Source: Paenibacillus sp. FSL R5-0341 (GTDB taxonomy: Bacteria > Bacillota > Bacilli > Paenibacillales > Paenibacillaceae). From it: 64,000 nucleotides of DNA. The stretch covers positions 1,302,001 through 1,366,000 of the forward strand of contig NZ_CP150241.1 of NCBI RefSeq assembly GCF_037975235.1. The letters run 5' to 3'. A program made the translations under genes and the position numbers. Positions 1-1,203 of this stretch are shown here, piece by piece. Each line of letters opens with the position of its first letter. Position 1 is the first letter of the stretch. The notes below the pieces were generated by a model, which saw only the letters and a list, made by a program, of their open reading frames with translations, was not told where the DNA came from and did no database searches.

Positions 1-201
1 GGAAGGGTTGGGAGGTATGACAAGAACATAGTCATTCTGCTGCTCCTCAACGGTACGTACCTGAATGTGCTCCGGGATTATGATACCGAAAGCTTCACGA
101 AGCGCCTGCTTCGGATTGGAGTGCAATTGTTGTCTGAAGTGCTCATCACTCCAAGCCTTTTCAATAATATCCTCATGCAACGTTTTCTCTGATACCATCA
201 T
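1..201 (-). CDS. NHLP-leader RiPP precursor peptide (5' part; cut by window edge)
   Basis: The minus-strand frame starting MMVSEKTLHED stays open for 67 codons to the window edge. It has the pattern of nitrile-hydratase-like leader peptides (NHLP family): a WSDEHFRQQL segment, then NPKQALREAFG, a PEHIQVRTVEE segment, and a hydrophobic stretch with prolines near the visible end. In known systems such leaders direct modifying enzymes to a C-terminal core that is cleaved off after export; the core here lies outside the window. A GAAGGG ribosome site sits about 10 nt before the ATG at 201. A further in-frame ATG at 210 lies too close to it. The gene follows an isoprenyl-synthase-like gene by 54 nt on the same strand, so one transcript is likely. 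Family assignment is from pattern recognition only; the product class is unknown. Confidence 0.72.
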   Translation of the reverse strand, partial: MMVSEKTLHEDIIEKAWSDEHFRQQLHSNPKQALREAFGIIIPEHIQVRTVEEQQNDYVLVIPPNPS

Positions 202-255
202 CGTCAACATTCCCTTCATATTTAAAATTAAACTGAACCAGCTTCATCCTTATGT

Positions 256-1203
256 TCAGGATTGCAACTGTTGCTCGCTGATCCAGTGATGAAACCCGCC
301 TTGGAGGAGCCGTTTCTTCCGTTGTGTAATGTCCTGAACAGCTTGTACCAACGTGCTGCATAAATAAGCATTAAACGTCTCAAGATGCGATATACCTAAG
401 TTAGACGATGTTAATGTACGATTATATTGATAAGCAATGTCTACGTAAGAGTTCATGAGTTGTGTATTATATACATTGTCATGTATACGTTCGCTAAGAG
501 GGTGAGCGGGATAGTTGTGATTCAGTGCTGCGGATATGTGGGAGAGGTAGCTGTTGTAGTTTCCATGCACAGCATCTTGTTGCGTGTCTGTGAAGTCATC
601 GGTCATCTGGAGTGTCATGAGTGTGATGTTGATGCCAGAACACACCGGGATGATCCGGTCGGACTCTTTCTGCATAAGCAGTGCACCTGTAGCTCCAATG
701 AGCAGAGGGGCTGCCTTTTGCGCAATCAACAAGGGACTCTTTTGAAAATAATCAATGGAATGCTCACCCGTAACACTCACGGCCCAATCCACTACATATT
801 GTCTGAAATAGATCCAGAATATGGAGGGAGGATCGAATAATTCCGAGTAAGATTGAAGTGCATCCATGTAATATAGATTCCCCAGGGATAACTTCCATGT
901 GGTATCCTCAGGTTGTTCATCCATCACGTCGTCCTGATTCAAAAAATATAACATGTGAATGAGACAGGCTGTACTTAATTGGAGTGCTTTCTCTTGGGGT
1001 AGTTTGTCTGAGTGTTGCATCCAAAGTGGAATGATGTACCCGATGTAACTATGTCCCGAATCTCGTAGCAGCGGATTAACCGAATGAAGTTGTTCCAATG
1101 CATATCCTGACAAGGGTTCGGGATATTTCCGTACGAGTTGTTCCGCTGAAGCAAACACGATCTCCAGATCGGATCTAAACGGATCTAACCAATCTTTCCG
1201 CAT
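256..1203 (-). CDS. class I isoprenyl-diphosphate-synthase-fold enzyme, ComQ-like role possible
   Basis: The 315-residue, largely helical, soluble protein carries two aspartate-rich motifs in the places expected of trans-isoprenyl diphosphate synthases: QDDVMDE at residues 90-96 (DDxxD) and QMTDDFTD at 199-206 (DDxxD). Between them is a YFQKSPLL segment like the lysine-containing helix of that family. In the family these motifs bind Mg2+ and the allylic diphosphate. The N-terminal substrate motifs of housekeeping farnesyl or heptaprenyl synthases are not apparent, so it is divergent, possibly like ComQ, which prenylates the ComX pheromone. The downstream partner is an NHLP-leader peptide 54 nt away. 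A role in prenylating that peptide is inference; a terpene or lipid enzyme of another pathway is the alternative. The ribosome site AGGAAGG lies 13 nt before the ATG, which is rather far. Confidence 0.6.
   Translation of the reverse strand: MRKDWLDPFRSDLEIVFASAEQLVRKYPEPLSGYALEQLHSVNPLLRDSGHSYIGYIIPLWMQHSDKLPQEKALQLSTACLIHMLYFLNQDDVMDEQPEDTTWKLSLGNLYYMDALQSYSELFDPPSIFWIYFRQYVVDWAVSVTGEHSIDYFQKSPLLIAQKAAPLLIGATGALLMQKESDRIIPVCSGINITLMTLQMTDDFTDTQQDAVHGNYNSYLSHISAALNHNYPAHPLSERIHDNVYNTQLMNSYVDIAYQYNRTLTSSNLGISHLETFNAYLCSTLVQAVQDITQRKKRLLQGGFHHWISEQQLQS

Follow-up and report, generated by a model that had tools for sequence, protein, structure and literature searches.

The left edge of the window, by which we mean the whole 64,000-nucleotide stretch of DNA analysed here, carries a palQ–palX gene pair. 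In the reading that we favour, with reasonable though not high confidence, its enzyme prenylates an internal tryptophan of the precursor peptide, and the product is a predicted membrane-active signal sensed by a convergently encoded PalP-type kinase. The pair is conserved, its enzyme keeps the catalytic residues, the tail of the precursor is fixed and the kinase gene is linked to the pair. Production of a Trp-prenylated peptide is most likely by analogy with the characterized relative described below, and the neighbouring kinase is the likely reader of that peptide.

The enzyme, its precursor and their known relatives

The enzyme gene lies at positions 256–1203 of the reverse strand and encodes 315 residues, which we assign from the open reading frame, the fold and homology to the Paenibacillus alvei enzyme (L152) as a PalQ-family protein and predicted peptide Trp prenyltransferase. 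As the original prediction had described, both Asp-rich motifs are found: DDVMD (residues 91–95; positions 919–933, reverse strand) and DDFTD (residues 202–206), the latter preceded by Gln199 (residues 199–206 together at positions 586–609, reverse strand). In this second Asp-rich motif (SARM), F204 stands where Trp is usual. Searched against Pfam and NCBIfam at E up to 10, the window enzyme hit neither the polyprenyl synthetases nor, convincingly, any other family; PF00348, which did not match it, matched only one of 15 enzyme relatives, at E 0.011. The AlphaFold2 model is all helical (pLDDT 87.7), and because a PDB comparison pairs it with prenyl-diphosphate synthases (best E 3.1e-4; TM-score 0.45–0.73 among the 50 matches listed), the predicted isoprenoid-synthase fold is a confident model, agreeing with the fold originally proposed. 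Alignment revealed that all of D89, D93, Q197, D200, D201 and D204 of PalQ are kept, while K39 of PalQ, a loose carboxylate contact, is Ser in the window enzyme; the Gln that reads the indole is present in every enzyme compared. Since PalQ D200A/D204A is reported to remain active (PMC10853753), the kept SARM says little about whether the motif is needed. One partial protein, P0023, shares 77% identity with the window enzyme and is recorded as Salmonella enterica on an 838-base contig, a record that is probably contamination.

The NHLP precursor gene, a palX homologue, is cut by the window edge and occupies positions 1–201 of the reverse strand. Its likely start, position 201, lies 54 nt past the enzyme stop (gap at 202–255, reverse strand), and its leader matches TIGR03793 over the full length with 64.3 bits (cut-off 50.9), confirming the predicted placement of the enzyme 54 nt before an NHLP precursor. 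This is the sole TIGR03793 match in the whole host genome (6.57 Mb, single contig), whose close relatives among the named genomes include P. amylolyticus, P. xylanexedens, P. taichungensis, P. pabuli and P. illinoisensis. The full gene (G000:C1:1301959-1302201) ends in NCGPWRS; the complete precursor in the genome ends in ...KVNYDVNCGPWRS (L002 13959-14219), with the C-terminal end ...VLVIPPNPSKVNYDVNCGPWRS. The candidate acceptor Trp is thus the third residue from the end, a position hidden from the original prediction because the end of the precursor lies outside the window. No PF05952 (ComX) match was listed for the complete precursor at E up to 10, and the best match in the genome to the NHLM exporter model TIGR03796 stayed below the cut-off (536.9 bits versus 853.3).

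The original prediction regarded ComQ–ComX as the only analogue and a prenylated NHLP peptide as new, and both statements are outdated: PalQ of P. alvei was reported in 2023 to prenylate its NHLP precursor PalX at the C-terminal Trp in vitro (PMC10853753). According to that report, PalQ uses C5, C10 or C15 donors and attacks indole C3 with formation of a pyrroloindole ring, and mass shifts of +68/+136/+204 and NMR are given; alanines appended after the Trp abolish activity, and a histidine kinase in the cluster, PalP, is named once (PMC10853753). A review presents PalQ as in use for peptide lipidation, limited by the need for a terminal Trp (PMC13290415). Our family scan recovered the P. alvei DSM 29 contig, the enzyme of which (L152) is 35% identical to the window enzyme. 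The published PalX core ends in Trp (PMC10853753); the public P. alvei DSM 29 record (L152 5906-6289; L198) reads beyond that core in its own frame.

The window locus resembles PalQ–PalX–PalP in having a homologous enzyme, an adjoining NHLP precursor, a kinase in the cluster, and the FARM, the Gln and the SARM kept. It differs in that the candidate acceptor of the window clade (defined below) stands at −3 or −4 within the tail NCGPWR rather than being a terminal Trp, and in that the clade enzyme has Phe for Trp in the SARM plus 16 further clade-specific columns. Judged from sequence, the window pair is therefore a homologue of PalQ–PalX and not new in kind, and the difference is the position of the putative acceptor; we class the pair as a PalQ–PalX variant because its Trp is not the last residue. 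The guess that an isoprenyl-synthase-fold enzyme prenylates an NHLP peptide is well supported by this homology.

The locus is also like ComQ–ComX–ComP, with an isoprenoid-synthase-fold enzyme, a small precursor, a Trp third or fourth from the end and an adjoining membrane histidine kinase. In six ComX variants the Trp is reported to stand third or fourth from the end, and a Trp at the second to fourth position is accepted by one ComQ (PMC5331326). However, the window precursor has an NHLP leader, unlike ComX of Bacillus subtilis, and the window enzyme has an intact second Asp-rich motif, unlike ComQ (PMC10853753). ComX is called extremely variable and ComP has PF07730 (PMC4008528), whereas the window-clade tail is fixed and the window kinase has PF00512 rather than PF07730.

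Conservation of the pair and position of the tryptophan

The enzyme is present in 63 of 75 genus genomes, and a separate precursor ORF follows it directly in 62 of these. In the remaining one (L022, genome G004), the precursor sits in one frameshifted joint frame with the enzyme. A natural fusion (413-aa frame) was rejected for this genome, in which the C-terminal stretch of the enzyme is read in the other frame past a homopolymer run; genome completeness is 95%, and the joint frame is likely an assembly error. L022 was omitted from the codon and signature counts and retained in the enzyme tree. Because all 63 enzyme-bearing genus genomes carry a precursor beside the enzyme, the pairing exceeds chance, and the neighbourhood survey sides with the original prediction in finding the pair conserved. 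Beyond the genus, the enzyme was detected in 326/394 genomes of the family and in 193/296 genomes of an order sample that overlaps the family sample.

Genus genomes with an enzyme 59–100% identical to the window enzyme, 44 in number, make up the window clade. Precursor tails in all 44 read NCGPWR followed by one or two residues: NCGPWR[S/D/N/T], with Trp at −3, in 41 and NCGPWRSF, with Trp at −4, in three. The precursor ends in Trp in the 19 other genus genomes, where the enzyme is 32–36% identical. The survey of 173 loci, with 134 distinct enzymes among them, placed the last Trp at −1 in 60 cases, −2 in 20, −3 in 45, −4 in three and −5 in one, and four cases had no precursor within 1.5 kb; the P. 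alvei record, with its own frame running beyond the published core, was kept apart from this count. On a quick enzyme tree, into which P. alvei was entered as −1 following PMC10853753, the Trp position shifts at least 12 times, and the branch of the window clade (support 100) is the longest inner branch, with a length of 1.27 against 0.71 for the next. The enzymes of L124 and L137 are 95.5% identical and adjoin precursors ending in WD (Trp −2) and WGD (Trp −3), respectively. By these counts, the tree and this pair of loci, the PalQ family is not bound to a strictly terminal Trp. Among individual loci, the L213 tail VIWGEW holds two Trp residues, the L221 tail AAMWNSPA has Trp fifth from the end, and neither a precursor nor a PalP-type kinase was found in the fetched stretch of L120, the enzyme of which is the same as that of L200.

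Over 43 window-clade genomes, pN/pS was 0.265 for the enzyme, 0.061 for the precursor and 0.023 for the last 22 precursor codons up to the Arg, and the last nine codons, YDVNCGPWR, had a pN of 0.000 at a pS of 0.52. Pro directly before the Trp occurs in 43/43 clade tails versus 0/85 elsewhere, and Cys within the last 14 residues in 43/43 versus 1/85, while Trp is the sole tail residue common to the clade and the rest of the family. As read from these codons, the clade tail is a fixed product. The tail NCGPWR was not found in the literature searched, and the supplement of PMC10853753 (Figures S3 and S6) may show such tails.

The clade enzymes have residues of their own as well. With cut-offs of our choosing (at least 95% of 43 clade enzymes and at most 10% of the other 90), 17 columns carry a residue fixed in the clade and rare in the other 90 enzymes, including S52, G55, I57, L60 and F204 of the SARM. 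We rejected the idea that the Trp-to-Phe change in the SARM accounts for the −3 acceptor: four non-clade precursors with Trp at −3 pair with DDW.D or DDY.D enzymes. F204 is therefore a mark of the clade and not of the position, and for the same reason the 17 columns may be a response to the NCGPWR tail as a whole, beyond position alone.

The main rival to direct prenylation of the internal Trp is tail trimming, in which a carboxypeptidase first clips the residues after the Trp, leaving a C-terminal Trp for the enzyme to prenylate as PalQ does. PalQ, the only tested relative with an NHLP substrate, requires a terminal Trp and refuses residues after it, which counts against our reading, and the 95.5% identical enzymes that serve WD and WGD behave as if the tail were irrelevant. 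Nevertheless, all 44 clade genomes retain the Arg that follows the Trp, and a PalQ-like reaction would need neither the long stem branch of the clade (1.27) nor its own residues at 17 columns; we therefore consider prior trimming rather unlikely, if worth taking seriously. The conserved Cys, present in 43/43 clade tails and 1/85 others, could instead be the acceptor, with the trimmed end C-G-P-W resembling a CaaX box. This we judge very improbable: every enzyme compared retains the Gln that reads the indole, no tail residue other than Trp is common to the clade and the remaining family members, and the role of the Cys may be in shaping the ligand or forming a disulfide. Least credible of all is a small-molecule prenyl-diphosphate or terpene synthase with the precursor as a chance or regulatory neighbour, which the fold, both Asp-rich motifs and the label heptaprenyl diphosphate synthase given by one source to the homologue P0020 would fit, but PF00348 missed the window enzyme and all but the one relative, and enzyme and precursor are jointly present and jointly absent, the two grounds on which we also rejected a housekeeping synthase; moreover, PalQ is a tested peptide prenyltransferase (PMC10853753).

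The convergent kinase

The gene next to the precursor, in convergent orientation, encodes a 632-aa kinase with HisKA (PF00512) and HATPase domains, and its hydropathy fits an ectodomain followed by seven TM helices. A model of the 99.5% identical L088 kinase, of moderate quality (pLDDT 73, pTM 0.53), likewise shows seven TM helices behind a beta ectodomain; PF07695 (7TMR-DISM) matched 5/17 kinase relatives, L088 not being among them. The nearest solved structure for the catalytic part is sporulation kinase B (PDB 3d36; 4.6e-53 alone, 2.1e-74 as a profile), from which the window kinase differs by its predicted ectodomain and seven TM helices. Such likeness to a sporulation kinase is not peculiar to the neighbouring kinase, because five other kinases of the same genome, used as a control, outscored the PalP-type kinase against the KinD model, a result that counts against our reading. 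Unlike in ComQXPA, the kinase gene is convergent and not on the same strand, and no response-regulator-like gene was seen among the ORFs beside it, the flanking ORFs being judged by eye. Divergent from the enzyme gene, an exported-looking protein with a weak DUF2680 match is encoded at 1423–2160 on the forward strand.

In 78 of 80 named loci, the enzyme has a convergent kinase no more than 1 kb away, the exceptions being L114, at a contig end, and L120, with none. Linkage to the precursor was complete: in these 80 loci, 84/84 precursors, including two Trp-less remnants (L142, L156), have a convergent PalP-type kinase within 600 nt. Two precursors share one common kinase in L135 and L160. In L139 (8522-10765) and L144 (8516-10762), a second precursor is accompanied by its own convergent kinase, with no second enzyme in the fetched stretch, suggesting that ligand–receptor pairs may duplicate while sharing one prenyltransferase; in L159 and L161, the precursor is at least 2.8 kb from the enzyme yet adjoins the kinase. 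Because precursors stay beside the kinase where the enzyme is distant or unduplicated, the link of the peptide gene to the kinase is no looser than its link to the enzyme. Ten loci (L112, L116, L119, L121, L129, L133, L149, L150, L158 and L162) have two PalP-type kinases, with one precursor found in the fetched stretch.

Genomes without the pair qualify this picture. The enzyme is absent from 12 of the 75 genus genomes and the precursor is absent with it; no full precursor was found elsewhere in these 12, with partial, weak matches in G030 and G031. All 12 nevertheless keep the kinase, four at 76–78% and eight at 44–48% identity, which counts against a dedicated reader, and the kinase is therefore not solely a reader of the prenyl peptide. 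In L227, L229, L230, L231 and L236, neither gene of the pair stands between the kinase and the exported-protein gene, which is the same in all five; this gene (1423–2160 in the window) stays beside the kinase in the pair-less genomes whose gene order was examined. The tightness of the link differs between samples: among 30 hand-picked family genomes, the kinase occurs in 21/21 with the enzyme and in 3/9 without it (one truncated), disagreeing with the 12/12 enzyme-less genus genomes that keep it. Kinases kept without the pair in G166, G200 and G246 sit on long branches, and one of them is truncated.

The four pair-less kinases of 76–78% identity nest within the window clade on the kinase tree, and we compared rates of change across regions set by eye (ectodomain 30–170, membrane 171–400, catalytic 405–632). 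Two of the four, L227 and L230, were set against six pair-bearing sisters with three outgroups. The loss line had more unique changes in the membrane region in 36/36 comparisons, ranging from 28:17 (p 0.14) to 37:12 (p 0.0005), in a test that covers one loss event, with comparisons that share branches and sites treated as independent. Taking L227 as the example, comparison with L034 gave membrane counts of 33:13 (p 0.0045) and comparison with L046 gave 30:16 (p 0.054); no such excess was seen in the ectodomain (10:13 and 13:21) or the catalytic part (5:3 and 5:9) in the same two comparisons. Of the positions invariant in 35 pair-bearing clade kinases, 17/132 in the membrane region were changed in all four loss kinases, as opposed to 1/50 and 0/160 in the other regions; the same membrane count for three pair-bearing subclades was 6/114, 1/112 and 4/122 (Fisher p 0.049, 0.0003 and 0.006). 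These results fit a peptide that constrains the membrane region, for a single loss event and weakly in some comparisons.

Proposed pathway and its significance

In the pathway we propose, the enzyme would bind the leader and, following PalQ, carry out a Mg-dependent forward prenylation at indole C3 with pyrroloindole ring closure, attaching geranyl or farnesyl to the Trp three residues from the precursor end. Unlike PalQ, the clade enzyme would accept an internal Trp at −3 or −4, as ComX and the conserved tail suggest. The trimmed product would then be a membrane-active signal. Linkage and the rate comparisons point to a kinase that may sense it through the seven-helix membrane region, and the KinB-like catalytic part, together with the lack of a response-regulator-like neighbouring ORF, hints more faintly at output through a Spo0F-type phosphorelay.

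A bolder extension, which we put forward only tentatively and hold to be doubtful as a whole, is that palQXP is a Paenibacillales-wide prenyl-peptide quorum system acting through the membrane helices of a 7TM kinase on the sporulation phosphorelay, in which the P. amylolyticus/pabuli enzyme was rebuilt for an internal Trp at the ComX position, so that an NHLP RiPP would have given rise independently to a ComX-like pheromone.

Enzymes free of the terminal-Trp limit of PalQ would be available from a natural clade whose internal Trp is fixed. If the kinase senses the product, most sampled family genomes (enzyme in 326/394) would hold a prenyl-peptide signal with a KinB-like receptor, and a cue for a change of state in Paenibacillus would become testable genetically.
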